Positions 1,044-24,764 of a stretch of 28,302 nt of DNA are shown here, piece after piece. The notes under the pieces are model-generated. The model worked only from the letters and a program-made list of their open reading frames with translations, ran no database searches and was not told where the DNA came from. The stretch's first letter is position 1. Each line of letters starts with the position of its first letter. Source of the stretch: a virus; IMG/VR virus record IMGVR_UViG_3300043395_001300, positions 1 through 28,302 of that record. One strand, written 5' to 3'. The translations under genes were made by a program, and so were the position numbers.

Positions 1044-1382
1044 ATGAAAAATCTTAATGACAAAACTATGGTGACTTATGTTGGATTAATAAATGCTTTA
1101 ATAGATATCATGGAAAATGATTTTTCTAAATCAGTATTTAATAAGCAACAGATTAAATTTAAAACTCAAAATCTATTAAGTGAGTTTAAGAAAATAGAAG
1201 ATAAATTATTTCCGCCTGGAGATCATGGTGAAGCCTCCACACAATATATTGATGCTGGAACTATTATGCTTAAATTCTTTAAGCTTGGCATGGAAATGAC
1301 AGAACTTGATAATCATAAGCAAGAAGGATTAAATACGCAGTTGAATATATTATTTAAAAATTATGGAATCAAATTTGAATAA
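1044..1382 (+). CDS. hypothetical protein, 112 aa
   Basis: It begins one base after the methyltransferase stop and encodes 112 residues. It is predicted to be largely helical and soluble, with a central PPGDHGEASTQYIDAG segment that breaks the helices. I do not recognise a family. Its codon use matches its neighbours, so it is very likely a real gene. One copy of the recurrent octamer GTGGAGGC (reverse strand, 1233-1240) lies in it, encoded as Ala-Ser-Thr with the locally rare codons GCC TCC. Confidence 0.7.
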   Translation: MKNLNDKTMVTYVGLINALIDIMENDFSKSVFNKQQIKFKTQNLLSEFKKIEDKLFPPGDHGEASTQYIDAGTIMLKFFKLGMEMTELDNHKQEGLNTQLNILFKNYGIKFE

Positions 1383-1408
1383 TCAAAAAAATTATTTATA
1401 ATTTTACA
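1374..1408 (+). promoter_or_regulatory. candidate Bacteroidetes-type promoter
   Basis: TTTG at 1374-1377 is followed, after 21 bases, by TAATTTTACA at 1399-1408. The known Bacteroidetes consensus is TTTG around -33 and TAnnTTTG around -7 with a similar spacing. Here the -7 element has TTTA in place of TTTG. It lies in the 40-base gap before the DUF3310 gene, which would give a leader of only about 10 bases. The same TAnnTTTACA occurs in two other intergenic gaps. Confidence 0.4.
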
Positions 1409-1422
1409 TAAAATTAAATCTA

Positions 1423-1689
1423 ATGGAAGATACACCGGACTACGATAAGGAACTTGAAGAATTAGCAGATTTTGATATGAGTATTGAAATGGTAAACCAT
1501 CCAAATCATTATCAAGGTCAAGGATTAGAAGCAATTGATGTAATTGAATCATTTAATTTAGGATTCAATATTGGTAATGTTATCAAATATCTTTTAAGAG
1601 CAGGAAAAAAAGGATTATACATTCAAGATTTGCAAAAGGCTCAATGGTATTTAAACAGAGAAATTTCAAAGGTTAATAAATACGAGTAG
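1423..1689 (+). CDS. DUF3310 family protein
   Basis: An 88-residue protein carrying the DUF3310 signature: VNHPNHYQ, then EAIDVIESFNLGFNIGNVIKYLLRA, then DLQKAQWYLNREI (residues about 25-83; shown here in pieces). The family is widespread in phages as a small single-domain protein or as a fusion partner of nucleotide-metabolism proteins; its biochemical role is not settled. The first 24 residues are acidic and variable. It stands alone between a candidate promoter at 1374-1408 and a strong terminator at 1700-1731, so it may have its own transcript. Confidence 0.85.
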   Translation: MEDTPDYDKELEELADFDMSIEMVNHPNHYQGQGLEAIDVIESFNLGFNIGNVIKYLLRAGKKGLYIQDLQKAQWYLNREISKVNKYE

Positions 1690-1699
1690 ATTCATTAAT

Positions 1700-1731
1700 A
1701 ATAGCCATAGCATTTAGTTGTGGCTATTTTT
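1700..1731 (+). terminator. rho-independent terminator after the DUF3310 gene
   Basis: A perfect 8-bp stem, AATAGCCA at 1700-1707 with TGGCTATT at 1721-1728, has a 13-base loop and runs into TTTTT. It sits between the DUF3310 stop (1689) and the next start (1737), and closes the first block. Confidence 0.8.
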
Positions 1732-1736
1732 GTTGC

Positions 1737-2473: not shown

Positions 2474-2697
2474 CAGTTGAAGAACTTAAATTTATAGAAG
2501 ACAATATTGAAAATTTCGCTGCAATCAATGATGGATATTGTAAGCACATGGATCATAATATTTTAGGTGCTTATGAAAGCATTTATAGAAGCAATCTGGA
2601 TAAACATTTTGTACTTACCAAATGGTGTGGACATTGCGTATTTGATATGATGCTACGATTAAGAAACTATTACGAAGAAAATAAACCTAAAAAATAA
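2470..2697 (+). CDS. small protein with WCGHC motif
   Basis: A 75-residue soluble protein. A TTG four codons upstream (2458) could also open the frame, but the ATG at 2470 overlaps the preceding stop as ATGA, which is the coupling used throughout this genome. The C-terminal half contains KWCGHCVFDMMLRLRNYYEE, with a Cys-Gly-His-Cys group that could bind a metal or be redox active. An extra Cys (GYCKHMDHN) may complete a metal site. I know of similar small unnamed proteins in Bacteroidetes phages but no function. Confidence 0.65.
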   Translation: MTVEELKFIEDNIENFAAINDGYCKHMDHNILGAYESIYRSNLDKHFVLTKWCGHCVFDMMLRLRNYYEENKPKK

Positions 2698-3707
2698 TGA
2701 GAATACTTGCAGTTGGTGATCGTAGTTCTGGTGTAACTTACCATCGTTTGGCATTACCATTGTCAATCATGAAAAAGGATTATTGTTTAATTACTGATGT
2801 TATAAGCGAAGAATTATTAAAAGAAAAGCAATTTGACATTGTAGTTATTAATCGTTTTTATAATAATGAGCCATTGCAAACAATCATGGAGTGGAGGCAA
2901 AAGTATGGCTTCAAACTTATTGTTGATATTGATGATTATTGGGTTTTGTATGAGCAACATCCATCACAGAACGCTTATCGAAAACTTGGAATTACTGGAG
3001 TAATTACTTCTTACATTCGAATGGCAGATTTAGTTACTTGTACGCATAATCGTTTAGCTTTAGAAATTAAAAAAATTAATCCAGAGGTATACGTTTTACC
3101 TAATGGATTACCATTTGATAAAGACCAATTCATAGATACTAAATTAGATCACGACAAAGTAAACATTGTACATACTGGTTCAATCATGCACTTTGCAGAT
3201 ATTAAGCAAATCAAAAGTGATATGGTTAAGCTTTCTAAATCAAAAGCATTTGTGGAGGCATCAAGAATGGTAGTTTGTGGATGGCATGATTATAACGATT
3301 GGCATTGGAAACAAATTGCAGATATTTTAACTGCTAAACAAAAGCTTGATTACCAAGTATTGAATCATTTACCAGTTGAATCGTATATGAATTTTTACAA
3401 TGAAGCTGATATATTGATAGTGCCATTATTAGATAACAAATTCAATAGAATGAAATCTAATTTAAAAGCTTTAGAAGCAGGTGCTAAACGTATACCTATT
3501 ATGACTTATAAAAAGCCACCATACGATGATATACCAACTTGTTTCTTTGTTGATGATTGGGAGAAAGATTTAAAACGTATGGCATTTTCAAAGCAAATGC
3601 GTGTTGATTTTGGAGAAGCAAATGCTGAATACGTTCGTAAGCATTATGATATTTTCAAAATTAATGAAGAAAGGTATGCTATTTATAATAAACTAATAAG
3701 CAAATAA
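2697..3707 (+). CDS. GT-B fold glycosyltransferase
   Basis: A 336-residue protein. The N-terminal domain begins MRILAVGDRSSGVTYHRLAL, a phage variant of the nucleotide-sugar transferase opening, and contains VDIDDYW. The second domain has VLPNGLPFD, VHTGSIMHFADI (start of the C-terminal Rossmann domain), MVVCGWHDY, and then NEADILIVPLLDNKFNRMKS followed by NLKALEAGA. This is the E(x7)E-like donor-site region typical of GT-B family enzymes related to GT4, with FNRMKSNLKALEAG as its most diagnostic part. It transfers a sugar to an unknown acceptor, perhaps phage DNA, a virion protein or a host surface glycan. It heads a cassette with an HAD-type hydrolase and a small-molecule methyltransferase, and its start overlaps the preceding stop (TAATG). 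Confidence 0.85.
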   Translation: MRILAVGDRSSGVTYHRLALPLSIMKKDYCLITDVISEELLKEKQFDIVVINRFYNNEPLQTIMEWRQKYGFKLIVDIDDYWVLYEQHPSQNAYRKLGITGVITSYIRMADLVTCTHNRLALEIKKINPEVYVLPNGLPFDKDQFIDTKLDHDKVNIVHTGSIMHFADIKQIKSDMVKLSKSKAFVEASRMVVCGWHDYNDWHWKQIADILTAKQKLDYQVLNHLPVESYMNFYNEADILIVPLLDNKFNRMKSNLKALEAGAKRIPIMTYKKPPYDDIPTCFFVDDWEKDLKRMAFSKQMRVDFGEANAEYVRKHYDIFKINEERYAIYNKLISK

Positions 3708-3709
3708 TT

Positions 3710-4680: not shown

Positions 4681-5095
4681 AAATATTGACCATGAAGAAA
4701 TGATGCAATGGGCAGAAAAGTACATTGATCATTGCCTTGAATCTACTAAAGAAGTTGCAACTGCAGGTGGTGTTAAAACAATTCGTGAAAGACATTTACC
4801 TACAATCAGTTATTTTCTTTTAATTTGGCTACCAAGACAAGGTCAACACTTATACAAACGAACTGCTTACTATTACGCATTAAAAGATGATAAGAATCCT
4901 AATCATCAATTAGTAAAAGAAATAGATGAAATGTTTCGTGCATTAGCAGCAGACATTGTAGCCAACGAAGGTAAAGGTGCGTTTTACGCAAAGAATCTTC
5001 TTGGATGGACTGACAAACAACAAACCGATGGTAAACAAGAGATAGTTGTTACCTATGAGCAAAAAGATACAAATCAAACTTCCGAAGGAACATAG
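4667..5095 (+). CDS. terS: terminase small subunit (putative)
   Basis: A 142-residue protein directly before and overlapping the large terminase. The ATG at 4667 is preferred to the TTG at 4661. The N-terminal part is helical (about residues 8-75) and would hold the DNA-recognition helices. The C-terminal part contains AADIVANEGKGAFYAKNLLG followed by WTDKQQTDGKQEI, a pattern I know from small terminase subunits of Bacteroidetes phages (ending with a xFxLKNxxGWxDKxE-like motif). It would bind the packaging site and load the motor. The assignment rests on the motif and the position. Confidence 0.75.
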   Translation: MKPYKNIDHEEMMQWAEKYIDHCLESTKEVATAGGVKTIRERHLPTISYFLLIWLPRQGQHLYKRTAYYYALKDDKNPNHQLVKEIDEMFRALAADIVANEGKGAFYAKNLLGWTDKQQTDGKQEIVVTYEQKDTNQTSEGT

Positions 5096-6230
5096 TGGGC
5101 AATTACAAATCCTAAATGAAGCTAAACGTTTTAATGTAGTAGATTGTGGTCGTAGATGGGGTAAATCCGTTATGGCTACTAATCTATTGGCTAATTGTGC
5201 AATAAAAGGATTACCTGCAGGTTATTTCACACCAACCTACAAACTTCTAAACGAAACATTCAATAATTTATTGCTGATTCTTGATCCTATTATTAAACGT
5301 AAAAATGATAATCAATTTATTGAACTTATTACTGGTGGTAAGATTGAATTTTGGTCATTAGAAAATGAATTAGCAGGTCGTTCAAGAAAATATCAATTAC
5401 TTATAGTAGATGAAGCTTCATTTACAAAGAATCTTTGGCAACGATGGACTGAATCACTTCGAGCAACATTGTCAGATTTGCGTGGTGATGCTTGGTTTTT
5501 TTCAACACCAAAAGGGAAAAATGATTTTTACAAATTATATGTTCGTGGCTTAAATCAAGAAAATGGATGGATGGCATGGAAAATGCCTACATCTACAAAT
5601 CCATTTATACATCCAGATGAAATTGAAGATGCTAAACGAGATATGCCGTTTGATGCTTTTGCTCAAGAATACATGGCAGAGTTCAATGAAAATGCGAGTA
5701 ATCCATTCGGTAGAGATAATATTGAAAAATGTATTAAACCTTTGAGTTTAAATGCAACTCAATGTTTTGGCATAGATTTGGCTAAATCAAGCGACTGGAC
5801 TGTTATCATTGGACTTGATGCGTTTGGCGATGTCTCTTATTTTGATAGATTTCAAAATGATTGGGGAACTACAATGGCAAAAATTAAAGCTTTGCCAAGA
5901 TTGCCAATGTTGATAGATTCTACTGGTGTTGGCGATCCAATCGTAGAACAACTTCAAACAAGTGGTCTTGATGTGGAGGCATTCAAATTTACTTCTACTT
6001 CAAAGCAAGAATTAATGAAAGGTTTACAAGTTGCTATTCAACAAGGAACTATTGGCTACCCAGAAGGAATAATCGTTAATGAACTTGATGTATTTGAGTT
6101 TCAATATAGCGTTAATGGTGTTAAATATTCTGCACCAAATGGATTTCATGATGATGCAGTTATGGCTTTAGCTTTAGCAAATCGTAAGAAAGTTTTCAAT
6201 GTTGGTAGTGGCAGATATTCTTTTAGTTAA
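5055..6230 (+). CDS. terL: terminase large subunit
   Basis: A 391-residue packaging motor. ATPase domain: CGRRWGKS at residues 31-38 (Walker A variant), LLIVDEAS at 115-122 (Walker B with Asp119-Glu120), and FFSTPKG at 148-154 (coupling motif). Nuclease domain with RNase H fold: FGIDLAKSSDWT from about residue 238 (first catalytic Asp241), MLIDSTGVGD (second acidic site), and GFHDDAVMALALA from 363 (third acidic cluster, Asp366-Asp367). All key residues are present. The start chosen is the ATG at 5055, inside the end of the small subunit. A TTG at 5046 is possible but less likely. Confidence 0.97.
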   Translation: MSKKIQIKLPKEHSGQLQILNEAKRFNVVDCGRRWGKSVMATNLLANCAIKGLPAGYFTPTYKLLNETFNNLLLILDPIIKRKNDNQFIELITGGKIEFWSLENELAGRSRKYQLLIVDEASFTKNLWQRWTESLRATLSDLRGDAWFFSTPKGKNDFYKLYVRGLNQENGWMAWKMPTSTNPFIHPDEIEDAKRDMPFDAFAQEYMAEFNENASNPFGRDNIEKCIKPLSLNATQCFGIDLAKSSDWTVIIGLDAFGDVSYFDRFQNDWGTTMAKIKALPRLPMLIDSTGVGDPIVEQLQTSGLDVEAFKFTSTSKQELMKGLQVAIQQGTIGYPEGIIVNELDVFEFQYSVNGVKYSAPNGFHDDAVMALALANRKKVFNVGSGRYSFS

Positions 6231-6245
6231 AATTACTATTTATAT

Positions 6246-7009: not shown

Positions 7010-7607
7010 TGTTGAACAAGTACTTACTGAATATGCAGTTAGGTTTTTAAAACTTGCACAACAAACTATTTCTAAAGCGAAAAAGATAGATTTAGGTAAT
7101 TTAATGGACATGCAAGTTAGTGCAGTCGAAAAAAAGCCTAATTCTTATTCAATAACTATTGGTTATGATAAATCTAATCCTGCTTCAAAGTATTACGATT
7201 ATGTAGATAAGGGTGTAAAAGGAGTTAAAAATAAATCAAAAGCACCTGGTTCACCATATCAATACAAAACATTAAAAGTAGGAAGTGAATTTACAAAAGT
7301 TATTATGGCTTGGTATATAAGGCATAAAAACTATATTAGAAAAGAAACACAAGTAAAGAATTTAAGTGCCTTACAACAAAAAAGAAAGACATTAGCACAA
7401 GTAAGTGAGAATGATAGAATTAAATCAATTTCTTATTTAACTGCTCGTAAAATAAAACGAGAAGGTTTAAAACGAATTGGTTTCTTTTCAAATAATATTG
7501 ATAAGGTATTCAATGACAAATTTAAACAAGATTTGGCAAAGGCAATAGGGCAAGAAATAGTAGTAAGTATAAAAGATACATTAAATGGCAATAACAATCA
7601 AAAGTAG
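7002..7607 (+). CDS. conserved tail-region protein, 201 aa
   Basis: It starts eight bases before the end of the chaperone extension. The product is basic and lysine-rich, with an N-terminal helical part, a middle segment DYVDKGVKGVKNKSKAPGSP followed by YQYKT, then a helical linker, and SYLTARKIKREGLKRIGFFS near residue 165. Such proteins are common between chaperone and tail genes in Bacteroidetes phages. The arrangement of a strand-rich middle and the GLKRIGFFSNNI helix recalls small head-tail or tail-completion proteins (HK97 gp10-like), but I cannot confirm this. No membrane segment or enzyme motif is visible. Confidence 0.6.
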   Translation: MDNVEQVLTEYAVRFLKLAQQTISKAKKIDLGNLMDMQVSAVEKKPNSYSITIGYDKSNPASKYYDYVDKGVKGVKNKSKAPGSPYQYKTLKVGSEFTKVIMAWYIRHKNYIRKETQVKNLSALQQKRKTLAQVSENDRIKSISYLTARKIKREGLKRIGFFSNNIDKVFNDKFKQDLAKAIGQEIVVSIKDTLNGNNNQK

Positions 7608-8718
7608 TCCAAGTGCTTATTCTTCAGCAAACAAAGGATTATATCATGTTGTAACAAGTAGTAATTCAACACAACCTAATTTCAAATTTGTGTTTGATGT
7701 GCTAATAAATAATATTACGATTGCTTCAATCAAGCTTTTTGCAGATAGTGGAGGCTATGGAGTTTTTGATGCAACTGAAATAATTCGCCAATACTTTCAA
7801 ACTGGATTCATAAGCAATGCTTCTGGTATCACAATGAATAATTATGATTTTATTTCTTGTACGTATAAAATCAATTATGGTGAAGAATATGGTGGAACAA
7901 CATACACCAATTTAACAAACGCAACAACTACTGTTTACAATTACGTTAACGATCCATTCTTAAATGGTATTTCAAGCTTTCAAAACAAGTTTTTGACTAA
8001 TAGAGATAAAAACAATATTGAAGTAGGATTTGGTGAAAACTACTACATAACTTATTTTAATACTTCATTATCAAACGTTACTGCTACCATTCAAAAAATT
8101 AATTCAGATGGTTCAAATGATGGCTATTCAGTTACAACTTCATCACTTGGAAGTGCAAGAAGTATTTTAATGAATTTTTGTGCTACTAACATAAACACAA
8201 GTGTTGGTAGTTCATTTATTACTTCTTCAACGTATGGTTATAAAGTAACAATTGGAAGTGATACGATTACAATTGTACATGTTTGCAATACAAGATTTAA
8301 TAATTGCAACATGGTATTTTTAAATATGCTTGGTGGTTATGAAACATTTACTTTTAGATTAGCATCAAGAAGAAAGAAAAATGCAGAGCAATTTACTTAT
8401 TCGATTCCAGAATATATACGAAGTGGTGATAATATGATTACATCAATTAATGGTGTAACTTTTGGTGGTAAGCGTTCTTATGGAATTAATACTACAACTT
8501 CATATACTGCAGTTTCTGATTATCTATCAGAGCAAGATTACAATTTAGGTGCTGAAATTATTACATCACCTGAAACGTATTTTCAAATTGGTGCTTTATA
8601 CTATCCAATGATTTTAAAACAAACTAATTGGACTCAAAAACTTCAAAGTACAGATAAAATCTTTAACTATGAATTTGAGTTTGATTTATCTTATAATTTA
8701 AGAAGCCAAATTAGATGA
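7585..8718 (+). CDS. putative virion (tail) protein, 377 aa
   Basis: A 377-residue beta-rich protein with high Asn, Thr, Ser and Tyr content and no signal peptide, overlapping the previous gene by 23 bases. The recognisable core is VFLNMLGGYETFTFRLASRR (residues about 245-264), followed by a C-terminal half with SYTAVSDYLSEQDYNLGAEI and SPETYFQIGALYYPMILKQT. The segment LNMLGGYETF is shared by Bacteroidetes phage proteins that always sit next to the large tail protein encoded after this one. A distal tail or baseplate component is the best guess. The exact role is inferred from context. Confidence 0.6.
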   Translation: MAITIKSSPSAYSSANKGLYHVVTSSNSTQPNFKFVFDVLINNITIASIKLFADSGGYGVFDATEIIRQYFQTGFISNASGITMNNYDFISCTYKINYGEEYGGTTYTNLTNATTTVYNYVNDPFLNGISSFQNKFLTNRDKNNIEVGFGENYYITYFNTSLSNVTATIQKINSDGSNDGYSVTTSSLGSARSILMNFCATNINTSVGSSFITSSTYGYKVTIGSDTITIVHVCNTRFNNCNMVFLNMLGGYETFTFRLASRRKKNAEQFTYSIPEYIRSGDNMITSINGVTFGGKRSYGINTTTSYTAVSDYLSEQDYNLGAEIITSPETYFQIGALYYPMILKQTNWTQKLQSTDKIFNYEFEFDLSYNLRSQIR

Positions 8719-10883
8719 TTACAGAATTATTTGTCGAAGATGTTAGATTGGATTTATTCGATGATATTGGATTCGATTTAAACTATCAAATAGATGATAT
8801 TAAAGACTTTTCAGCAAGGAATACAAGCTATTCTAAAACTATTACTATTCCAGGCAATGCGAATAATAATAAGCTTTTTGGTCATATTTATAACATTAGT
8901 GCTGCAAATAATTATTTCAACTCTAATCCTGATCTCCCGAATATTGGCTACAATTTCGATCCTTCACGACAAGCTTCTGCAAAAATATTCATAAACAAAA
9001 TTCAAGTTTTTAAGGGTGTACTTCGTTTACTTGAGGTGCAAGTTAAAAATGGAATGATTACATATGAGTGTGCAGTATTTGGTGAACTTGGTGGGTTTGT
9101 TAATGATATTGGAAAGCTTCTAAATAACAAAACTAAATTAGAAGATTTAGATGTTTTTAATCAATACAATAAAGAATGGAATTATGCTAATATAGTAGCA
9201 TCATGGAATGCTTCAAATGTTGCTCAAGGAAAAGGAGTTGTTTTTCCATTAATTGATTATGGTCAATGTAAAAGTGGAAGTGGAGGCGATTATCATTTGA
9301 ATGCTTTTAGACCTGCATTTTTTGTATATGAAATAATTGATGCGATTATTACGAAAGCAGGTTACACCTACGATTCGCAATTTTTAAATGGTGATTTCTT
9401 TAAGACTTTAATAATTCCAAATAATCGTGCTAATCTTGAGCAGATTAGAAAAGACTTATTAGCAGTTGGTAGTGGAAGTTCAATTTCAAGTAGTGCTTCT
9501 CTTCCAATGAGTAATGTAATTACTTTGAATTTATTTACAAATAGTGGTAATACCGATTTTGCTTTTACTGGTTCTAATGGAACTATTGGTAGAGTAAAAT
9601 TAAAAGGAACTTATAATCTTACTACTCCTGCAACGACTACAATTACTCTTTATAAAAATGCAAGTGTTATTGCCACTGAAACTACTACTTCAGATTATAA
9701 TAATAGATTAGTTACATTAGATTGGGACTATGCAACTACTTTAAATACTGGTGATAATTTATCAATTGGTGTTACAATTAGTGCAGTAGATCCATACAAC
9801 TTTTCATTTGACCATGATTTAGAATTAGATTTTGTATCTGATTATGCACAAGCTTCAGTTGCTACTTCTGGAGTTATGTTAAACATGCAAAATTTACTAC
9901 CAAAAGGAATTGAGCAAAAAGACTTTTTCTTGTCAATTTGTAGAATGTTTAATTTATATGTTTTTGAAGACAGAAACAAAACGAAACATTTAAAGATTGA
10001 ACCATTTGTTGATTTCTATGATTCTACTGGTTTTATTAATATAGATACAACACAAGATTTAGTATTGCATGGCGAAACTGGAGATCCTACTGGATTAGTA
10101 TATCTATATAACCAATGGTCTAAAGCATTAGATTGGTCTAAAAAGGTTAATAGCGATACTGATATGAAAATTAAGCCAATGAGCGAGTTAAACTCAAGGT
10201 TCTATAAATTCATGTATGAGCAAGATGAAGACTTCTACAATGATTCATATTTTAAAAGGTACAATCAAACATATGGTGATAGATTATTTGATACTAAATT
10301 TCAATTTTCAAATGATACAACAGAAGTTAAAGTAATTTTTGCACCTACTGTTTTAGCATCAAGAAGTGGTGATACTAAATTAGCATCACAAATATTTAAA
10401 GTTGATTCAAATAACGTTGAAGTTCCTTTTGATTCTAAAATAAGAATATTGCAATACAAATATATTGCTGATACACCAAGCTTTGCAATTAAAGAAGTTT
10501 ATCCTAATACTTCTACAACACTTGGAACACCAACAACTTATGGTTATTGTGGTCATTTAGATTCACCAACATCGCCAACTAAAGACTTAAATTTTGGTGT
10601 GCCTAATGAATTAAGATTTACTTTAAATACATCTTATCCTACTGCAAATTTATTTACTACAAATTGGGGTTCTTATTTAGCTGAAATCATTTCGAAGGAT
10701 TCTAAATTAGTTACTTGCTATTTATATTTGACAATCGCAGATATTTATGCTTTAGATTTTTCTAAACTTATTTTCATAAATAACGCATTCTTTAAGATTA
10801 ACAAAATCATTGATTTTAATCTATTAAGAAGTCAGACAACGCAAGTAGAATTATTAAAAGTTATTGAATTAACATATAATTAA
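8715..10883 (+). CDS. large tail (hub/baseplate-like) protein, 722 aa
   Basis: The N-terminal segment (ELFVEDVRLDLFDDIGFDLN, then NTSYSKTITIPGNANNNKLF near residues 35-55) is a hallmark of a large tail protein found across Bacteroidetes siphoviruses. Residues about 268-377 look like an inserted beta-sandwich (alternating Thr/Ser-rich strands, for example TTTITLYKNASVIATETTTS), of the kind seen as carbohydrate-binding or BppU-like modules. After it follow FFLSICRMFNLYVFEDRNKT and ALDWSKKVNSDTDMKIKPMS, which resemble tail-hub domains. It probably forms part of the tail tip with its upstream partner. No protease or lysozyme motif is seen. Start and stop overlap both neighbours by 1-4 bases. Confidence 0.7.
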   Translation: MITELFVEDVRLDLFDDIGFDLNYQIDDIKDFSARNTSYSKTITIPGNANNNKLFGHIYNISAANNYFNSNPDLPNIGYNFDPSRQASAKIFINKIQVFKGVLRLLEVQVKNGMITYECAVFGELGGFVNDIGKLLNNKTKLEDLDVFNQYNKEWNYANIVASWNASNVAQGKGVVFPLIDYGQCKSGSGGDYHLNAFRPAFFVYEIIDAIITKAGYTYDSQFLNGDFFKTLIIPNNRANLEQIRKDLLAVGSGSSISSSASLPMSNVITLNLFTNSGNTDFAFTGSNGTIGRVKLKGTYNLTTPATTTITLYKNASVIATETTTSDYNNRLVTLDWDYATTLNTGDNLSIGVTISAVDPYNFSFDHDLELDFVSDYAQASVATSGVMLNMQNLLPKGIEQKDFFLSICRMFNLYVFEDRNKTKHLKIEPFVDFYDSTGFINIDTTQDLVLHGETGDPTGLVYLYNQWSKALDWSKKVNSDTDMKIKPMSELNSRFYKFMYEQDEDFYNDSYFKRYNQTYGDRLFDTKFQFSNDTTEVKVIFAPTVLASRSGDTKLASQIFKVDSNNVEVPFDSKIRILQYKYIADTPSFAIKEVYPNTSTTLGTPTTYGYCGHLDSPTSPTKDLNFGVPNELRFTLNTSYPTANLFTTNWGSYLAEIISKDSKLVTCYLYLTIADIYALDFSKLIFINNAFFKINKIIDFNLLRSQTTQVELLKVIELTYN

Positions 10884-12637
10884 TGGCAAACGAGGTAGTA
10901 GGTATTGATATAAAAGCTGATGTTCGAAGTTTAAGAACACAGATAAGAGAAGCAACACAAGAGTTTGCAAGATTACAAAATACGGCAGGTGCATCATCTA
11001 AAGAAATTGCTGATAGTGCAAAACGAGTAGCTGAATTAAAAGATAGGTTAGCAGATGCTCGTTCTACTATTGATGCTTTCAATCCTGATCAAAAATTCAA
11101 AGCTTTTAGCCAATCTATTCAAGGTGTAGCAGGTGCTTTTGCTTCTGCACAAGGTGCTTTAGGATTATTTGGTGCTGAATCAGAAAATCTACAAAAACAA
11201 TTACTTAAAGTTCAAAGTGCTTTAGCATTATCTGAAGGATTAAACACAGTTCTTGATAGCGTACAAGGATTTAAAAACCTTGCATTAGTGATTAAAACTA
11301 ATGTTATTGGTGCATTTACTACTTTGCGTGGTGCTATTATAGCTACTGGAATTGGTGCTTTAGGAGTTGCATTAGCTTATGTAATTGGTAATTTTGAAAA
11401 AGTTAAAGAAGTAGTTTTAAAAGTAGTTCCAGGTCTTTCAAAAGTTGGTGAAGTAATTGGTTCAATTGTTGAAAATGTAACTGATTTTGTTGGAATTACT
11501 TCAGAAGCTGATCGTGCTTTAGACAAATTTAGTGCTAATTCTAAAAATAGAAGAGATACTTACGAAAACGAGTTAAAAGTTATGGAGGCACAAGGTGCCT
11601 CTGAAAAGGCTTTAGCTAATAAACGTAAGCAAATCATTCAAGAAGACATTAATTTACTTGTTGTAAAGCAAAAGAATGGCAAACAATTAACTGAAGAAGA
11701 AGTAAAACAACTTCGTGATTCAAGAAATGAGTTATTAGTTATTGATGCTAAATATCGTAAGTCTGTTTTAGACCAACAGGCTAAATCACAAGATGAATAC
11801 AATAAAAAACAAGAAGAAGAAACTAATAAATTTGTTGAACAAGCTAAACAAAGAAACGAAAAAATCAATGAAATTGGTCTTTCTTTTTTAGATGAGCAAG
11901 AACAAAAATTAGTTAAGTTAGCCGATAACTATCAAAAAGAATTAGAATTATTAGGAGATAATTTAGAAGCTAAAAAATTATTACAAGAAAAATATTCTAA
12001 TGATTTTATGAGCATAGTTAAGTATGAAAATACTAATTATGTAAAATCAAAAGAAGCTACAAATGCAAAAGAATTTGATTATAAATTAGCTTTAATTAAT
12101 CGAATTGAAAAAGTAAATAAAGATTTTGCTAAAAGAGATGTAGATATTTCTAAAGTTACTACGGCAGCAAAAGTTGCAATTGTAGGCGATGCTTTTGGTA
12201 TTTTATCTGGAATGGCAGAACAAGGAACTGCATTGCAAAAAGGTTTAGCTTTAGCACAAGTGGCAATTGATACTGGAGTTGCAATTTCTGGTTTAACTGC
12301 CTCCACTTCAGCACCATCACCAGACAACTTGGCAACTGGAGGAATTAGTGGTTTTGCTAAATATGCTGCTGGTATCATTAAAATATTGGCAAATATTGCA
12401 CAAGCTAAAAATATTATATCAAGTGCAAGTACAAGTTCAAGTGCAAGTAGTTCAACTCCAAATGTAGAAACTGCTGCCCCTATTATTCCACAATTTCAAC
12501 AAGCATCTACTGTTAATTTAAGTAGTGAAACAATGAATAAAATGAATAATGTCGCAGTTCGTGCTTATGTAGTTGAAAGTGATATTAGCAATTCACAACA
12601 AAGAATAAAAAGATTAGAAAATTCAGCAACATTTTAG
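10883..12637 (+). CDS. tail tape measure protein
   Basis: A 584-residue protein with a helical, Ala/Lys/Gln-rich N-terminus (residues 10-70, coiled coil), a Gly/Ala-rich stretch, a long hydrophobic segment at about 141-170 (VIGAFTTLRGAIIATGIGAL), a long coiled coil (about 215-400, many Lys/Glu/Gln), a second hydrophobic Gly/Ala segment (GLALAQVAIDTGVAISGLTA and GGISGFAKYAAGIIKILANI), and a Ser-rich tail. This build is that of tape measure proteins, which set tail length and are ejected into the host envelope. By the rule of about 0.15 nm per residue the tail would be near 90 nm (inference). No peptidase domain is evident. The ATG overlaps the previous TAA. Confidence 0.85.
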   Translation: MANEVVGIDIKADVRSLRTQIREATQEFARLQNTAGASSKEIADSAKRVAELKDRLADARSTIDAFNPDQKFKAFSQSIQGVAGAFASAQGALGLFGAESENLQKQLLKVQSALALSEGLNTVLDSVQGFKNLALVIKTNVIGAFTTLRGAIIATGIGALGVALAYVIGNFEKVKEVVLKVVPGLSKVGEVIGSIVENVTDFVGITSEADRALDKFSANSKNRRDTYENELKVMEAQGASEKALANKRKQIIQEDINLLVVKQKNGKQLTEEEVKQLRDSRNELLVIDAKYRKSVLDQQAKSQDEYNKKQEEETNKFVEQAKQRNEKINEIGLSFLDEQEQKLVKLADNYQKELELLGDNLEAKKLLQEKYSNDFMSIVKYENTNYVKSKEATNAKEFDYKLALINRIEKVNKDFAKRDVDISKVTTAAKVAIVGDAFGILSGMAEQGTALQKGLALAQVAIDTGVAISGLTASTSAPSPDNLATGGISGFAKYAAGIIKILANIAQAKNIISSASTSSSASSSTPNVETAAPIIPQFQQASTVNLSSETMNKMNNVAVRAYVVESDISNSQQRIKRLENSATF

Positions 12638-15146: not shown

Positions 15147-15170
15147 TTACACCTTAAAAAGAATAAAAAT

Positions 15171-15698: not shown

Positions 15699-15724
15699 GG
15701 TTTGTTGTTTGGGTAGTGATAGAG

Positions 15725-15751: not shown

Positions 15752-15783
15752 ATACAATTTATTTAATTTGCTATTTATATTTG

Positions 15784-16167
15784 ATGATACATTTAACAAA
15801 AGGTAATACGGATAGAGTAATTTTAACATTGACAGAGAAATGTCAATTGACTTCACCTAATTATTTATTTGTATTTACATCAAGAGAAGACCAAACAATT
15901 GTTAAATTTGTTATATTAAACAACGCAGATTTATCAACAAGTAAAGTACGATTTAATCAATTCAACATAGTTACTAATACTTATTTTGCTAATAGTAAAA
16001 GTGGTGAATTTGAATATCAAATTTATGAGCAAACAAGTTCAAGTAATTTAGATCCAACACAAGCAAGTGGATTGGTAGAAGTTGGACAAATGTCTCTATC
16101 AGATGGTTCTAATTTTGCATTTACACAAAGAAATACTACCAATACATTTAAGGTAAGAGAAATATGA
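15784..16167 (+). CDS. conserved virion-block protein, 127 aa
   Basis: The frame is open from 15709, but that start would translate through the terminator stem. The ATG at 15784, after the terminator, is preferred. The product (127 residues) is beta-rich with IHLTKGNTDRVILTLTEKCQ, NYLFVFTSR and NTYFANSKSGEFEYQIYEQT. It is a Bacteroidetes-phage family I recognise from the region between capsid/tail tube and portal genes, without a known role. A small head or neck protein is likely. The four-base overlap ATGA with the portal start shows tight coupling. Confidence 0.65.
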   Translation: MIHLTKGNTDRVILTLTEKCQLTSPNYLFVFTSREDQTIVKFVILNNADLSTSKVRFNQFNIVTNTYFANSKSGEFEYQIYEQTSSSNLDPTQASGLVEVGQMSLSDGSNFAFTQRNTTNTFKVREI

Positions 16168-17987
16168 ATGATTTAATATTTTTAAATTTTGCAGAAGCTA
16201 AAAAACCCGAATACAAAGAAAAGAAAGGTGCAGGTAATGGCTACATGGAATTTGGAGAAGCAAATGATTATCCAAACTATTTAGTTAGTTTGTACGATAA
16301 TAGTGCAAAGCATAATGCAATTGTAAAAGGAAAAGTCAATTATATTTCTGGTAATGGATTTAAAGTTAAAGAAGGTGTTGATCCAATAGCAGAACAATTC
16401 ATCGCTCAAGCAAATCCAAGCGAATCACTTGATGAAGTAGCAAAAAAAGTAATTACTGATATTGAAATATTTGGTGGTTCATATTTGCAAGTTATTTGGT
16501 CTGTTGATGGTAATAATATTGCAGAAATCTATCATAGCGATTACACTAAATGGAGAACTAACAAAGACAACACACAATTTTGGTATAGCGAGGATTGGAA
16601 AAATAACAAAGTTGAAAAATCAGTATATAACGCATTTAATACACAAGTAAGAACTGGTTGTCAAATTCTTTATATCAAAGAATATAGACCAAATTTGAAT
16701 GCTTATTCATTGCCTGGTTATTTTGGTTCTTTAAATTACATTGAATCAGATATCGAAATATCAAAGCATATTTTAGGTAATGCACAAACTGGATTCTCTG
16801 CATCTAAAATGATTACTCTTCCAAATGGAGAGCCAACAGATGATGAGAAACGACAAATTGAACGTAAATTTACAAATCGTTTTACTGGTAGTGATGGTAA
16901 AAAATTTATTCTTTCATTCGTTCAAAGTGCAGATAGAAAACCTATCATTGATGATTTAGGGGTAAGCGATATTACAAAAGAAGATTTCCAAAACGTAGAT
17001 AAGTTGATTCAACAAAACATCTATGCCGGGCATCAAATCACAGCACCAGATTTGTTTGGCATCGCAACTCCTGGTGCTTTAGGTCAAAGGCAACAAATGC
17101 GTGATTCTTATGAAATATTTAAGAACACTTATGTTAATGATAAACAAAGACAAATTGAGCAAGTATTTAGCAATTTAGCTAAATTAAGAGGTGCAACAAG
17201 TGAATTAGTTATAGTTCAAGTAGAGCCAATAGGAATTGAATTTAGTGAAAATATAATCACTCAATTTGCACCTAAAGAATGGATTTTAGAAAAATTAGGA
17301 ATTGATAGTTCAGAATTTAATCCAGATCCTACCATTGTAGAACCACAACAAATGAAAGCATCATTTAGCGATGATGATGTAATTAACTTATTTGCTAATT
17401 GTGGTGAAGATAAAGAGCAATATCAAATTTTTCAATCAAGAGAAGTTTTTAGCAATGTAGCTAATGAAAGTGAGGAGGCTATGCACATGGAATTTGCAGA
17501 GCAATCATTAACACAATTAGAATCTAACATAGTAGATTTAATTTCAAAAGACAAACGCATTAGTCCAGAAACAATAGCCTCCACACTAAAGGTAGATATT
17601 GGTATAATTGAAAAAGTTTTAAGTGGTTTAGAAAGCAAAGGTATTTTGGGTGGTAAAACTGGTGAAAAACGAGTGTTAAAACCATTGCGTGAATTAAATG
17701 CACCAAAACCAACTACTACAACTTTTCAAATCAAATATTCTTATGAATGGTTAAGTTCTATTCCATCATCACAAAGAGATAGTGCTAATCATCCATCAAG
17801 AGAATTTTGTCGTAGATTAATGAAATTGAATAAATTATATTCAAGAACAGAAATTGAAGCAATTAGTGCAAGATTAGGCTATTCAGTTTTTGATCGAAGA
17901 GGTGGATGGTGGACAATGCCTAATGGAGAACATTCTCCATCTTGCAGACATCGTTGGTTTTCACAAGTAGTAATTAAAAAAGGTTAA
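16164..17987 (+). CDS. portal protein with winged-helix-like and MuF-like C-terminus
   Basis: A 607-residue protein. Residues 1-400 have portal features: NDYPNYLVSLYDNSAKHNAI near 31-50, KVNYISGNGFKV, EIFGGSYLQVIWS, NAQTGFSASKMITLPNGEPT, IYAGHQITAPDLFGI, and a helical stem and clip region. After an acidic linker, residues about 448-500 (VDLISKDKRISPETIASTLK, then IIEKVLSGLESKGIL) look like a winged helix-turn-helix. The last 90 residues (about 517-607) contain SREFCRRLMKLNKLYSRTEI and GEHSPSCRHRWF, which recall the C-terminal part of minor head (MuF) proteins. The portal forms the 12-fold ring at the capsid vertex. Here it lies downstream of the capsid gene, far from terminase. Confidence 0.88.
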   Translation: MNDLIFLNFAEAKKPEYKEKKGAGNGYMEFGEANDYPNYLVSLYDNSAKHNAIVKGKVNYISGNGFKVKEGVDPIAEQFIAQANPSESLDEVAKKVITDIEIFGGSYLQVIWSVDGNNIAEIYHSDYTKWRTNKDNTQFWYSEDWKNNKVEKSVYNAFNTQVRTGCQILYIKEYRPNLNAYSLPGYFGSLNYIESDIEISKHILGNAQTGFSASKMITLPNGEPTDDEKRQIERKFTNRFTGSDGKKFILSFVQSADRKPIIDDLGVSDITKEDFQNVDKLIQQNIYAGHQITAPDLFGIATPGALGQRQQMRDSYEIFKNTYVNDKQRQIEQVFSNLAKLRGATSELVIVQVEPIGIEFSENIITQFAPKEWILEKLGIDSSEFNPDPTIVEPQQMKASFSDDDVINLFANCGEDKEQYQIFQSREVFSNVANESEEAMHMEFAEQSLTQLESNIVDLISKDKRISPETIASTLKVDIGIIEKVLSGLESKGILGGKTGEKRVLKPLRELNAPKPTTTTFQIKYSYEWLSSIPSSQRDSANHPSREFCRRLMKLNKLYSRTEIEAISARLGYSVFDRRGGWWTMPNGEHSPSCRHRWFSQVVIKKG

Positions 17988-17988
17988 G

Positions 17989-18558: not shown

Positions 18559-18559
18559 T

Positions 18560-19076: not shown

Positions 19077-19089
19077 TTGAACCTTATAA

Positions 19090-22000
19090 ATGGCTAATAA
19101 AAGAATAGATGAACTAATATCAAAAGCAATTATAGATGCTAATGATTTAGTTTTTGTTGGAGATCCTCTAACTGGATGGCTTTATAAAGCAACAGTTGCT
19201 GATTTACAAGCAGGTGTAACGGGTGGTATTGGTGGAAGTGGAACTGCTAACTTTATACCAAAATTTGCTACTGCAAACACGATTGGAAATTCAACAATAT
19301 TCGACAATGGAACTTCAGTTGCTATTGGAACTACAACACCAAATGCTTCTTTTAAATTTGTTGTTAATGGCAATGTTAGTTTTGGTGAATATGGCTTAAA
19401 TACTGGATTTGTTTCATTTGATACAACACCTACTAATACACCAACAAGTGCAGGAACACTTTCATGGAACGATACAGATGGCACTTTAGATTTAAAACTT
19501 AAAGGTGGTAATGTAACAAATCAAATTGGTCAAGAAATCAACAAAAGAGTTGTTAATAAAAGTGGTGCAACTTTAAATGAAGCTGATTTCAGAGCCGTAA
19601 GAATACGTTTGGTTAGTGAAGGTGGCGCACAAGGTCAAAGATTAGCAGTTGTTTTAGCACAAGCAGATAATGATACTAATAGTGCAACTACAATTGGTTT
19701 AGTTACAGAAACAATTGCCAATAATGCAGAAGGTTTTATTACATTAATTGGCGAAGTTAAGGAAATTGATACTACTGGTGCTAAATCATATGGTGGTACA
19801 GAAACATGGTCAGATGGTGATATATTATATCTTTCACCTACTCATGCAGGGTACTTAACAAACATTAAGCCACAAGCACCACAACATACAATCGTAATTG
19901 GTTTTGTTTCTTATGCTCATGCTATTCATGGTAAAATAGATATTAAAGTAGATAATGGCTATGAATTAGATGAATTACATAATGTTAAAATAAATACATC
20001 ATTACATAACCAAGCTTTAATATTTAATTCTTCAGACAATACTTGGAGAAATCGTACAATTATTAAAACAGATGGTTACGTTCCTTATTTTGATCAATCA
20101 AGTTTATTTTTAGATTCACCATTATATACTAATGGAACTAAAGTAGCAATTGGAACTAATTCATTCATTGGAACTAATTTACTTTCGGTTCAAGGTGGAA
20201 TTTATAGTGAAGAACACACGATAAATGGAAATTTATTAATTCATTCAAATACATTAAGTGGTAATGCTTTTATTTCTCGTTGGAGTGGAACTATTTGGGA
20301 TGTAGAACAAACCTTTTATAGCGATCATATCCTTTTCTCAAAAGATATTGAAAGTACAAAATTTACTAAAACTGGTGGTACTTCTGCACAATTCTTAATG
20401 GCAGATGGTTCAACTGCAACTACTTCAAGTTTAAGCTTATTAACTGGTCCTGGAACACAAAACTACATAGCCAAGTTTTACGATGCCTCTGGATTAATGA
20501 TGTACAATTCACAATTGTATGATAATGGCACAAATGTAGGTATCGGAACAACTAGTCCATTTAAGAAATTCACTGTTCAAGGTGGTGCAATAAGTGTGTA
20601 TTCATCATCAACTAATTATGGGTTTATGGATACATCCAATAACTCATTTAGTTTTACTTCTGCAAATGGATTTTATTTTGTTGCAAATAATATTGGAACA
20701 GTAGCTTCAACTTATGTCGATACAACTGGTAAATGGGGTTTTGGTGTAGGTACGCCATCATATAAAGTTGATGTAAATGGTGATGTAAATACAAATGGTA
20801 TTTATCGAATTAGTGGTTCGCCTCTAAGCACTACAAATATTGCTGAAGGTACAAACTTATACTTCACATCTAATCGTGTCTTAGGTCAAGTATTAACTGG
20901 CTTAAATTCTTCGTTATCAGGTACAATGTTAGCTACTGATTCTTTAATTGAAGGATTAAGTAAAGTACAATACCAATTAAACAATAAAGAAGGATTAATA
21001 ACGGCAGGAACAACTGCTCAATACTGGAGAGGGGATAAAACTTGGCAGACATTAAATACTTCTGTTGTACCTGAAGAAACTAATCTATACTACACAGATG
21101 CTCGTTCAAGAAGTGCAATTAGTAGTTCAGCAACTGGATTAACTTATACAAGTGGTACTGGTGTATTTAGCTTAACGGCAGGGTATGCAATTCCTACTAC
21201 TTCTGCTTTAGGTAATTATGATACTGCTTACAATCGTAGCTTAACTGCAGTGGCAGTTAGTGGTACAACAACAAAGACTATCACTTTAACAAAGCAAGAT
21301 GGAACAACATTAACTGCTTCGTGGAGTGATTATGATACTGCACCAGTTACTTCTGTATTTGGTCGTACTGGGGCAATCGTAGCAACAAGTGGAGATTATA
21401 CTACTGCACAAGTTACTGAATCAGGAAACTTATATTATACAGATGCAAGAGCAAGAGCAAGTGTTAGTGCAGGAACGGGAATAAGTTATAATTCAACTAC
21501 TGGTATTATTTCTTATAGTGGAACTGTTTATACAGATTCTTCTATTCGTGCTTTATTTTCAGCAGGAACTGGTATTTCTTATAACAATACAACTGGTGTT
21601 ATAGCTTCTACAATAACGCAATATACAGATGCTATGGCTCGTGCTTCTTTGTCATTTACGGCAGGAAGTGGTGCTTATAATAGTACAACTGGTGTTATTA
21701 CTATTCCAACTAATACTTCACAATTAACGAATGGTGCAAACTTTATTACGTTAGCTTCTTTAAGTGCAAGTAGTCCTTTAAGTTATAATAGTGGTACTGG
21801 TGCTTTTAGTATTTTACAAGCTACTACTACAACTAATGGCTATTTAAGTTCAACAGATTGGAATACGTTCAATAATAAGCAGAATGCTTTAGGTTATACT
21901 CCAGTACCAACAACAAGAACTTTAACTATTAATGGTACTGCTTATGATTTAAGTGCTGATAGGAGTTGGACTGTTGCAGGAACGATTAGTGGATTGACAA

Positions 22001-23958
22001 GTGGATATATTCCAAAGGCAACAAGTGCCTCCACGTTAGGGAATAGTTTGATTTATGATAATGGTACGAATGTAGGAATCGGCACAATATCACCAAATAG
22101 TTCTTTAGATGTTGTTTCAAATACTAATGCAAATGCAATTTCAATTAGAGCAAGAAGTACAAACGATTATGGAGTTTTAGATTTTAGAAGTAATAATGGT
22201 TCTGAAACAATAAGTGAAATATACATTCATAGAACAAGTGCAAATATTGGAAATTTAATATTTAGTACAAATAATGGAGGTACGGCAACTGAAAGAATGC
22301 GTCTCACCTCCGCAGGAAATCTTGGATTGGGGACGACATCACCCGAAAGTTTAACAAATCAAATTAGTCTTAGTATAAAAGGTACAAGTTATGCAAGACT
22401 TGATTTATATGATTCTACCAACAAAAATATGTATTTGTATGGTGGAAGTGGTTATGCAGTTGTAGGTGCAACAAGTTCAGCAACAAATGGTTTACAATTT
22501 GAAGTAAATGGTGCAACGAGAGCAACTATTTCCTCCTCTGGCAACCTTGGTTTAGGTGTTACACCGAGTGCGTGGACAAGTTGGAAAACCCTTCAAATTT
22601 CAGGTGGCGCGGTAGTTGCAGGGTATAGTAATAATACAATTTTAGGCAATAACTGGTATTATGATGGGACAGATAGATATTTAGCATCGACTAATGCAAG
22701 TATATATCAACAAGCTGGTGGAGTTCATTATTGGTATAATGCCCCTTCAGGCACGGCAGGAACTGCCATCAGCTTTACCCAAGCGATGACTTTGGATGCG
22801 AGTGGTAGACTAGGTATTGGTACTACAAGTCCGAGTGGCAGATTGGATGTACAAGCATCAGGATTATCTACATTTAGTTATTATTTTAAAAATTCTAATG
22901 GTGGATACGGTGGAGGAATTTATAATACAAGTGGTGTTAATACTCAATTGTATTTAGCTACCTCTGCTGGTACTGAAAATGTTTTATTAAATTCAAGTGG
23001 TTCATCTTGGTTAAATGGTGGCAACGTAGGTATAGGTACTACGAGTCCAAGTAGACAATTAGATATAAATGGCAATCTTAGGGTTCAGTCAGGAACAATT
23101 GATTTTAGTAATGACTTTAATAACCAAATATGGTCATTGTCAAATAATCTTAATTTCAAAACAAATGGTTCTGAAAAAATGATTATTACAAGTGGTGGTA
23201 ACGTAGGTATTGCGACAACATCTCCATCTGCTCAATTTCACGTTGCATCAGGTAACGTAGTAATAGGTGGTAATCCTACAACACAATATAAATTTAACGT
23301 ACAAGGTGTATCAGGTAAATATCTATCATTTTGGACTCCAACAATATCAAGTGCTAATAACAATGGTATAATGAGCCATGATGGTAATGGATTAAGTGGC
23401 TTAACACCATTTGGTCATTATGGCAGCTTCCATGTTTTTAATGGTGAGGTAACTGGTGGTGGAATGGTTCAAGTTGCAGGTGATGTAAACATTAGTGGAA
23501 CATTTAAAGTAAATGGAACACCAATTGGAACTGGTGGTGGTGGGGTATCAGGTAGTGGTAGCACTAATTATCTTGCAATGTGGTCAAGTGCTACTTCATT
23601 AACTAATGCACCAATGTATTTTTCTTTATCAACTATCTATATGCAAAATAATATTTACGCAATGACTTCAGCTAACTATTTTGGCACATCAAGTCAAGCG
23701 AATAAACTTTTAATTGCAAGACCATCAGATGGTAATTTTAGTGCAACATATGTAGGATTCCATGATGCTAATAATACAAATTTTGGTATAGCTAATAATA
23801 GTGGAAATGGAGAAGTTCAAATTTATGCTAACTCTTATGCAGCAATGAAAGTACGTTGGAATACTATTGAATTACCAAATCTTGCTTCAGGTTCAACAGG
23901 TAGAGCATTAATGGAATTATATTATGATGCTAACGGATTCGTAAAAATTAAACTATAA
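19090..23958 (+). CDS. tail fibre / receptor-binding protein, 1622 aa
   Basis: The largest gene. The N-terminus (MANKRIDELISKAIIDANDL, then VFVGDPLTGWLYKATVADL) is the attachment part seen in Bacteroidetes and marine phage fibres. The rest is repetitive: units of DNGTxVxIGTTxP followed by LDVxG (nine variants from about 19,300 to 23,260), YTDARxR units (20,854-21,650), and a four-times repeated YIPKxxxxxTLGNS-like lead-in. Residues 1060-1260 contain LGLGVTPSAWTSWKTLQISG and SGTAGTAISFTQAMTLDASG, a module widespread in phage fibres. The C-terminus (MELYYDANGFVKIKL) is not a typical S74 chaperone, so no self-cleavage is predicted. It would trimerise and bind the receptor. Confidence 0.9.
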   Translation: MANKRIDELISKAIIDANDLVFVGDPLTGWLYKATVADLQAGVTGGIGGSGTANFIPKFATANTIGNSTIFDNGTSVAIGTTTPNASFKFVVNGNVSFGEYGLNTGFVSFDTTPTNTPTSAGTLSWNDTDGTLDLKLKGGNVTNQIGQEINKRVVNKSGATLNEADFRAVRIRLVSEGGAQGQRLAVVLAQADNDTNSATTIGLVTETIANNAEGFITLIGEVKEIDTTGAKSYGGTETWSDGDILYLSPTHAGYLTNIKPQAPQHTIVIGFVSYAHAIHGKIDIKVDNGYELDELHNVKINTSLHNQALIFNSSDNTWRNRTIIKTDGYVPYFDQSSLFLDSPLYTNGTKVAIGTNSFIGTNLLSVQGGIYSEEHTINGNLLIHSNTLSGNAFISRWSGTIWDVEQTFYSDHILFSKDIESTKFTKTGGTSAQFLMADGSTATTSSLSLLTGPGTQNYIAKFYDASGLMMYNSQLYDNGTNVGIGTTSPFKKFTVQGGAISVYSSSTNYGFMDTSNNSFSFTSANGFYFVANNIGTVASTYVDTTGKWGFGVGTPSYKVDVNGDVNTNGIYRISGSPLSTTNIAEGTNLYFTSNRVLGQVLTGLNSSLSGTMLATDSLIEGLSKVQYQLNNKEGLITAGTTAQYWRGDKTWQTLNTSVVPEETNLYYTDARSRSAISSSATGLTYTSGTGVFSLTAGYAIPTTSALGNYDTAYNRSLTAVAVSGTTTKTITLTKQDGTTLTASWSDYDTAPVTSVFGRTGAIVATSGDYTTAQVTESGNLYYTDARARASVSAGTGISYNSTTGIISYSGTVYTDSSIRALFSAGTGISYNNTTGVIASTITQYTDAMARASLSFTAGSGAYNSTTGVITIPTNTSQLTNGANFITLASLSASSPLSYNSGTGAFSILQATTTTNGYLSSTDWNTFNNKQNALGYTPVPTTRTLTINGTAYDLSADRSWTVAGTISGLTSGYIPKATSASTLGNSLIYDNGTNVGIGTISPNSSLDVVSNTNANAISIRARSTNDYGVLDFRSNNGSETISEIYIHRTSANIGNLIFSTNNGGTATERMRLTSAGNLGLGTTSPESLTNQISLSIKGTSYARLDLYDSTNKNMYLYGGSGYAVVGATSSATNGLQFEVNGATRATISSSGNLGLGVTPSAWTSWKTLQISGGAVVAGYSNNTILGNNWYYDGTDRYLASTNASIYQQAGGVHYWYNAPSGTAGTAISFTQAMTLDASGRLGIGTTSPSGRLDVQASGLSTFSYYFKNSNGGYGGGIYNTSGVNTQLYLATSAGTENVLLNSSGSSWLNGGNVGIGTTSPSRQLDINGNLRVQSGTIDFSNDFNNQIWSLSNNLNFKTNGSEKMIITSGGNVGIATTSPSAQFHVASGNVVIGGNPTTQYKFNVQGVSGKYLSFWTPTISSANNNGIMSHDGNGLSGLTPFGHYGSFHVFNGEVTGGGMVQVAGDVNISGTFKVNGTPIGTGGGGVSGSGSTNYLAMWSSATSLTNAPMYFSLSTIYMQNNIYAMTSANYFGTSSQANKLLIARPSDGNFSATYVGFHDANNTNFGIANNSGNGEVQIYANSYAAMKVRWNTIELPNLASGSTGRALMELYYDANGFVKIKL
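20854..21650 (+). repeat. YTDAR-type repeats inside the fibre gene
   Basis: Five copies of a unit that begins [LVQ]Y[FY]T[DS]xxxRxxxS: LYFTSNR at 20854, LYYTDARSR at 21081, LYYTDARARASVS at 21427, VYTDSSIRALFS at 21526 and QYTDAMARASLS at 21619. The last three carry SAGTGISYNSTTG or a close version behind them. Such repeats make up triple-helical shafts of fibres. They are also recombination targets. Confidence 0.75.
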
Positions 23959-23975
23959 TAAAAAAAAAATAATAT

Positions 23976-23985
23976 TAAATTTACA
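23976..23985 (+). promoter_or_regulatory. candidate -7 element TAAATTTACA
   Basis: In the 45-base gap between the fibre and the next gene lies TAAATTTACA, matching the TAnnTTTACA found at 1399 and 27402. No TTTG is found at a proper distance upstream, so this is weaker than the copy at 1399. The leader behind it is purely A/C-rich up to the ATG at 24004, as in well-translated Bacteroidetes genes. Confidence 0.3.
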
Positions 23986-24003
23986 AAAACAAACAACAAA
24001 AAA

Positions 24004-24408
24004 ATGACAACAACAAAGAAAACTTTTGGAGAATTATTAACTCTAATTACTTATCTAAATGCTTCAGTAAAAGAAGGAAAAACTATTGGTGAAAAGAAAT
24101 TAGCCATATTTGCTAAAAAACTTCAACCACATTTAGATGCTTATAATGAAAAGTTAGAAGATATTCGTTTAGAGAATGCTTCAGTAGACAAGGATAAGAA
24201 CTTGTTGCTAAATGACAAAGGTGGCTATTTATATACAAGTGAAGCTACTAAAAAAGTAAACAAAGAAGTAAAAGAATTAATTGCTGAAGAATTTGATTAT
24301 GAGATGATTCCAGTTAAGCAAAAGATTGATTTAGAAAAATATACTTTTTTGAATGGGTGGGTTACTGGTTTAGATTTTGATATTGAAGAAGAAGAAATAG
24401 AATTATAA
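24004..24408 (+). CDS. conserved hypothetical protein, 134 aa (DUF1617-like layout)
   Basis: A 134-residue acidic protein with a helical front (FGELLTLITYLNASVKEGKT), a long helix around AIFAKKLQPHLDAYNEKLED, a turn KDKNLLLNDKGGYLYT and a C-terminal helix with TKKVNKEVKELIAEEFDYEM. This arrangement is like DUF1617-type small tail-region phage proteins, but the sequence is too far for me to be sure. It follows the fibre and precedes a DUF7936-like protein, with a one-base overlap (TAATG). A small accessory tail or chaperone role is possible. Confidence 0.55.
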   Translation: MTTTKKTFGELLTLITYLNASVKEGKTIGEKKLAIFAKKLQPHLDAYNEKLEDIRLENASVDKDKNLLLNDKGGYLYTSEATKKVNKEVKELIAEEFDYEMIPVKQKIDLEKYTFLNGWVTGLDFDIEEEEIEL

Positions 24409-24764
24409 TGGAAATAACTTTTAAATGGATTTGGGAAGCAGGATCATTAGGATCACTTCCAGAAGTAGATGGCAAGAAAGACTATGTAGTAGTCGTAAAT
24501 TGGAGATATCGTGGTACTTGTGCCGATCCAAGAGATGTAAATCAAGATATCATGGTTGACAAATATGATCAATCTACTTTCAAAGTAGAAGAAGATCAAA
24601 AAGATTATATTCCATACGAAGAACTTACTGAAGAAATCATTGTAGGATGGTTAAATTTAGATGTTAATGCTATGGAAGAAAGTTTAACTAAACAAGTGGA
24701 GGCGATTTTAAATCCTCCAATCGTTTATCCTCCTATTCCATTTACTTCAAGTTCTAAAAATTAA
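24408..24764 (+). CDS. DUF7936-like protein, 118 aa
   Basis: A 118-residue beta-rich protein. It begins with EITFKWIWEAGSLGSLPEVD, followed by VVVVNWRYRGTC, then YIPYEELTEEIIVGWLN and EESLTKQVEAILNPPIVYPP. The phrase xPYExLTEExVxGWL, followed by a helix and NPPxVxPPLPF, is a recurrent small protein in phages from marine and freshwater metagenomes (DUF7936-like), usually found near tail fibre genes. Its role is unknown. Fibre assembly or attachment would fit the position. Confidence 0.7.
   Translation: MEITFKWIWEAGSLGSLPEVDGKKDYVVVVNWRYRGTCADPRDVNQDIMVDKYDQSTFKVEEDQKDYIPYEELTEEIIVGWLNLDVNAMEESLTKQVEAILNPPIVYPPIPFTSSSKN

Follow-up and report, generated by a model that had tools for sequence, protein, structure and literature searches.

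The AddAB Chi words are AGCGG in Bacillus, GCGCGTG in Lactococcus and GAAGCGG in Staphylococcus, and the Chi of Haemophilus occurs in the forms GNTGGTGG and GSTGGAGG, in which a degenerate position is tolerated. The Chi of E. coli, GCTGGTGG, is read by RecBCD and was found to be over-represented in lambdoid phages which possess a recombinase and lack a RecBCD inhibitor (PMC3784561). A candidate proteobacterial Chi was given as GCTGGAGG (PMC8022716). The phages of the Bacteroidota are in many cases uncultured, and our search of open-access papers found no Chi described for this phylum.

The octamer GTGGAGGC, present in ten copies in the stretch of phage DNA analysed here (in the following the window, 28,302 bases making up the entire IMG/VR record), occurs in related phages in the slightly degenerate form GHGGAGGC, where H is A, C or T. 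With the Chi words of Bacillus, Lactococcus and Staphylococcus it would have the two-subunit AddAB-type reader in common, as encoded by the candidate host, whereas those words are shorter, unrelated in sequence and belong to Firmicutes. Like the Chi of E. coli, it is rich in G, non-palindromic and eight letters long, shows polarity on the candidate host chromosome and is over-represented in phages, as described for phages not blocking the enzyme (PMC3784561), but the sequence is another one and the enzyme class would be AddAB-like instead of RecBCD. Moreover, the E. coli Chi reaches about 0.2 copies per kb both in E. coli and in its Rec- phages, while the phage density observed here (about 0.4 per kb) by far exceeds that of the sampled chromosomes. 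The core TGGAGG is shared with GCTGGAGG (PMC8022716) and the Haemophilus forms; compared to these, the octamer is shifted (G-TGGAGG-C) and can have A, C or T at position 2, and its final C is indispensable in phages. The density in phages over that in hosts and the allele at position 2 are the unusual features.

The window encodes a terminase, a portal, a tail fibre, capsid-region proteins and an endolysin, together with three DNA-processing proteins on the + strand: a DNA N6/N4 methyltransferase (341 to 1042, PF01555), a phage DNA repair exonuclease of the SbcD/Mre11-like phosphoesterase family (26147 to 27280, phrog_704, E 1.8e-72) and an Erf-family single-strand annealing protein (27783 to 28301, PF04404, E 4.4e-24). 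With the last of these, the phage is equipped with an annealing recombinase of its own. The Erf gene is truncated by the end of the contig, which probably makes the record an incomplete phage genome.

Six of the ten copies of GTGGAGGC lie on the + strand. Two were found in the glycosyltransferase-like ORF 2697 to 3707, at 2891 to 2898 (Glu-Trp-Arg-Gln frame) and at 3252 to 3259 (GTG GAG GCA, Val-Glu-Ala), and one at 5973 to 5980 in the ORF of the terminase large subunit (5046 to 6230, Val-Glu-Ala). The others are located at 7748 to 7755 (ORF 7585 to 8718) and 9280 to 9287 (ORF 8715 to 10883), both in a Ser-Gly-Gly frame, and at 24696 to 24703 (ORF 24408 to 24764, GTG GAG GCG, Val-Glu-Ala). The four copies on the - strand are all written as GCC TCC ACN for Ala-Ser-Thr, namely with ACA at 1233 to 1240 (ORF 1044 to 1382), ACT at 12299 to 12306 (ORF 10883 to 12637), ACA at 17577 to 17584 (portal ORF 16164 to 17987) and ACG at 22027 to 22034 (tail-fibre-like ORF 19090 to 23958). 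The copy closest to the left end lies on the - strand and the one closest to the right end on the + strand; so oriented, they would stop an enzyme coming in from either end. This is a weak hint, as the contig ends are maybe not the physical ones. The window has a single variant copy of GHGGAGGC, GAGGAGGC at 17472 to 17479 (+ strand), which may be functional in view of the enrichment of the A form among relatives.

In dinucleotide shuffles of the window, GTGGAGGC showed a mean of 0.13 copies and never more than one, and Markov models of orders 0 to 3 gave an expectation of 0.08 to 0.18. The expectations of orders 4 to 6 (1.0, 2.5 and 7.1) absorb the signal, because GTGGAGGC, which ranks first in over-representation among the octamers of the window, dominates its own sub-words in a 28 kb sequence; GGAGGC, for example, occurs 12 times, 10 of them within GTGGAGGC. 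The strongest null was a permutation of synonymous codons (n=1000) keeping every protein and the codon usage, which resulted in a mean of 0.235 and a maximum of 2 copies compared to the 10 observed. The codons used in the copies are locally rare, with TCC accounting for 1.7% of Ser, GCC for 4.8% of Ala and GTG for 5.2% of Val codons. Since the permutation never exceeded two copies and otherwise avoided codons are used, the data support that selection acts on GTGGAGGC as a DNA word. The first-pass annotation had arrived at this view from the same ten positions and strands, which all proved exact, from an expectation of about 0.13, from three reading frames excluding one repeated peptide (four peptides were counted) and from synonymous choice in favour of the octamer. 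Each of these points was reproduced, with the Markov-corrected excess present at orders 0 to 3, and selection on the word is further borne out by its conservation and gain in the relative L033 and its enrichment in many other relatives.

A near DNA relative of the window was not found in the phage collection. The contig L033 showed 87.7% nucleotide identity to the window over about 6.2 kb, and all four copies of GTGGAGGC which the window has in this stretch (at 1233, 2891, 3252 and 5973) are kept, compared to 35 to 44% of comparable 8-mers conserved. L033 has two further copies, at sites occupied by GTGGTGAA and GTGGAAAT in the window, so that this close relative both retains the octamer and adds to it. 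Regarding the host, most genome contigs carrying relatives of the exonuclease are Bacteroidota MAGs, and among named phages, Nonlabens phage P12024S has the nearest portal, with 26% identity. From these protein relationships, the host of the window phage would be a Bacteroidota bacterium, placed at the level of the phylum. Several phages of the Bacteroidota Flavobacterium, Elizabethkingia, Cellulophaga and Nonlabens showed no excess of the octamer.

Over eight phage contigs, GHGGAGGC was found at 0.28 to 0.44 copies per kb, with a strand distribution of 47:44. Six contigs (G010, G011, G012, G013, G019 and G020) comprised 9 to 14 copies of GNGGAGGC each, compared to about 0.5 to 0.7 expected. 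In 78 phage loci drawn via the Erf protein, some of which are closely related so that the copies are not all independent, GNGGAGGC was observed 238 times with 17.3 expected, was present in 70 of the 78 and ranked first de novo among patterns of its shape. The substitution table showed 51, 133 and 52 copies with A, C and T at position 2, with 4 to 6 expected for each, while G at this position was not enriched and changes elsewhere were near background. The flanks carried no information in 89 non-orthologous contexts, i.e. those left in a related set once similar flanks were removed. GHGGAGGC is accordingly a short, sequence-specific and non-palindromic word, as is typical of Chi. Position 2 is T in all ten GTGGAGGC copies of the window, beside the single GAGGAGGC; only T is also found in L033 and almost only T in the phage pieces of the genome G003 described below, while C prevails in G019, G020 and many Erf relatives. 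The allele may mark the host lineage, which suggests its use as a clue to the host.

The distribution of the octamer was compared to that of the phage genes. Of ten motif-bearing contigs checked, only G020 has a relative of the window methyltransferase (50% identity). The T and C forms are absent from G024, G025 and G028, all of which possess the exonuclease; G024 has five copies of the octamer in 51 kb, and G025 and G028 showed no excess at all, so that a tie to the exonuclease was rejected. The same holds true for a tie to Erf, as G009 to G012 carry the word without a related Erf. Since the octamer tracks neither the exonuclease nor Erf nor the methyltransferase, a rule set by the host is favoured.

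Among 296 Bacteroidota genomes across the phylum, no low-GC genome came near the octamer density of the phages. Prophage searches by terminase found no genome; with portal and capsid as queries, the genomes obtained were all distant. G100 was among these, a genome of 59% GC from the order of the Cyclobacteriaceae, which served as negative control: the octamer was found 19 times with 18.1 expected, was not polar and was absent from the prophage. The candidate host is G003, a Cyclobacteriaceae MAG with three to four copies of GTGGAGGC in each of its phage pieces (L172, L200 and the start of L201). In two large contigs of G003 comprising 895 kb, GTGGAGGC was found at twice the expectation with a strand ratio of 36:5, and no enrichment was seen for the corresponding words having C, A or G in place of T. 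In the same 895 kb, none of 8037 heptamers was more polar than GTGGAGG (130:39, P 1e-12), which occurred at 1.7 times the expectation or about 190 per Mb and was still distributed 94:34 outside the octamer. In G361, another genome of the family, GTGGAGG showed 50:14 and rank 4 in polarity. The excess of GTGGAGG was 1.7- to 1.8-fold in the sampled contigs of G003 and G361, where it has to be considered that contigs C12, C13, C30 and C43 were chosen partly for holding copies and that the switch point in C13 was placed with the help of the copies, with the GC skew changing its sign nearby. On the whole-genome level, GTGGAGGC amounted to about 1.4-fold in G003 (152 copies, some of them in phage contigs, compared to about 98 extrapolated) and to about 0.9 in G361 (70 compared to about 75 extrapolated), i.e. 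no excess in the latter. Contig C43 of G361, which is dense in the octamer, was considered as a prophage and rejected, as it holds ordinary chromosomal genes. In G003 (P 0.0015) and in G361 (P 0.005), neighbouring octamers were co-oriented beyond chance, and no more than by chance in G336, G061 and G006; the full list of octamer places in G061 showed no polarity. Within the candidate family, the word is strongly polar in G003 and partly so in G361, but only weakly over-represented. In G003, a gene for an AddA/RecB-like protein (1077 aa) also lies next to one for an AddB-like protein (942 aa), an operon that could provide the cognate enzyme, and PDDEXK_1 matches were obtained in four other Bacteroidota genomes.

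Altogether, GTGGAGGC is probably, with considerable room for doubt, a Chi-type signal of the Bacteroidota host of this phage, read by the host AddAB. We infer that this host belongs in or near the Cyclobacteriaceae and that the octamer protects the phage DNA. The host helicase-nuclease would enter a broken or linear end of the phage DNA and degrade it until GHGGAGGC is met in the right orientation; it would then switch to making a 3' single strand, which could be passed to RecA or to the phage Erf protein and thereby feed recombination. By analogy, a phage with an Erf recombinase and a hoarded octamer would match the precedent of the lambdoid phages and the Chi of E. coli (PMC3784561). Among the proposals of the first-pass annotation, the Chi-type signal is the best supported one: the sharp G-rich octamer on both strands in phages and its polarity in a candidate host with AddA/AddB-like genes speak in its favour, while the weak chromosomal excess, the missing polarity in G336, G061 and G006 and the several Bacteroidota phages without enrichment do not. 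With a crisp octamer derived from phages and a polar word in a possible host, the question can be tested with one purified enzyme, and a general route is suggested by which the Chi of uncultured hosts could be inferred from the word their phages hoard.

The enrichment in phages (10- to 100-fold) lies far above any chromosomal excess, the copy density is similar in unlike phages, and the octamer is unusually sharp with one degenerate position. These observations would also fit a recognition word of another host or phage protein than AddAB, acting for example in replication, partition or escape from defence. This explanation is rather unlikely, considering that the octamer does not follow the exonuclease, Erf or methyltransferase genes and that the polarity of the core in the two Cyclobacteriaceae genomes fits a signal of host DNA processing; it keeps some weight on account of this gap between the phages and the chromosomes. 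To a similarly minor degree, it is conceivable that the octamer is no classical Chi and instead serves as a compulsory "passport" for a host protein, shown about every 2.5 kb by a large group of Bacteroidota phages while the chromosome is not rich in it. In this case, the host lineage would set the allele (T only, or C, T and A at position 2), and the host range of a phage would be readable from its octamer.

A further explanation, which we consider decidedly improbable, is a polar chromosome-segregation word of the KOPS or AIMS type, read by FtsK in the host and taken over by the phages. KOPS and AIMS are octamers as well, show polarity on host chromosomes by favouring the leading strand and become denser and more biased towards the terminus. 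The strong strand polarity in G003, partly seen in G361, would be expected of such a word. However, KOPS in integrated elements keep one permissive orientation (PMC5993296), whereas the copies here are about equally distributed over both strands (47:44 in the phages, 6:4 in the window), and there is no known reason for a phage to raise the density of such a word so far.

The first-pass annotation had further proposed a target of the phage methyltransferase and a packaging signal. The former would be supported by the N6/N4 methyltransferase encoded in the window itself (341 to 1042), but nine of the ten motif-bearing relatives checked have no recognisable relative of this enzyme and the word is non-palindromic and ungapped, while sites of a host restriction system should be lost and not gained; a methylation or restriction target is thus very improbable. 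The latter is unlikely as well, since the copies are scattered and lie on both strands. Finally, although all copies of GTGGAGGC lie in coding sequence, a compositional or coding accident caused by repeated peptides or local codon fashion is practically out of the question, being refuted by the three frames, four peptides and rare codons, by the codon permutation, by the enrichment over 78 loci of diverse relatives and by the substitution table.

Further over-represented words were observed. In the window, ACGGCAGG (five copies) and GCAGGAAC (six copies) occur exclusively on the + strand, at 21001 to 22753 and at 10982. Almost all copies lie inside the tail-fibre-like gene (19090 to 23958), and both words are probably repeated coding units; ACGGCAGG, as second over-represented octamer, was set aside due to this restriction mostly to one gene and to one strand. 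In the phages of the 53% terminase group (L054, L065, L075, L081, L084 and others), which lack GNGGAGGC, TAGACGA was 7 to 12 times over-represented and found almost only on the + (match) strand. CCTGAAG and GCGCTGG were found on both strands in L151 (1 to 20984) and also in L134 and L149, CCTGAAG with 21 copies compared to 1.7 expected in L151 and GCGCTGG with 12 compared to 0.8 in L151 and 8 compared to 0.4 in L134; these are possibly Chi-like words of another host group. In L030 (1 to 17023), a relative by terminase, AGCGGGA showed 14 copies compared to 0.8 expected with a strand ratio of 8:6, which makes it a candidate for another host-specific word.
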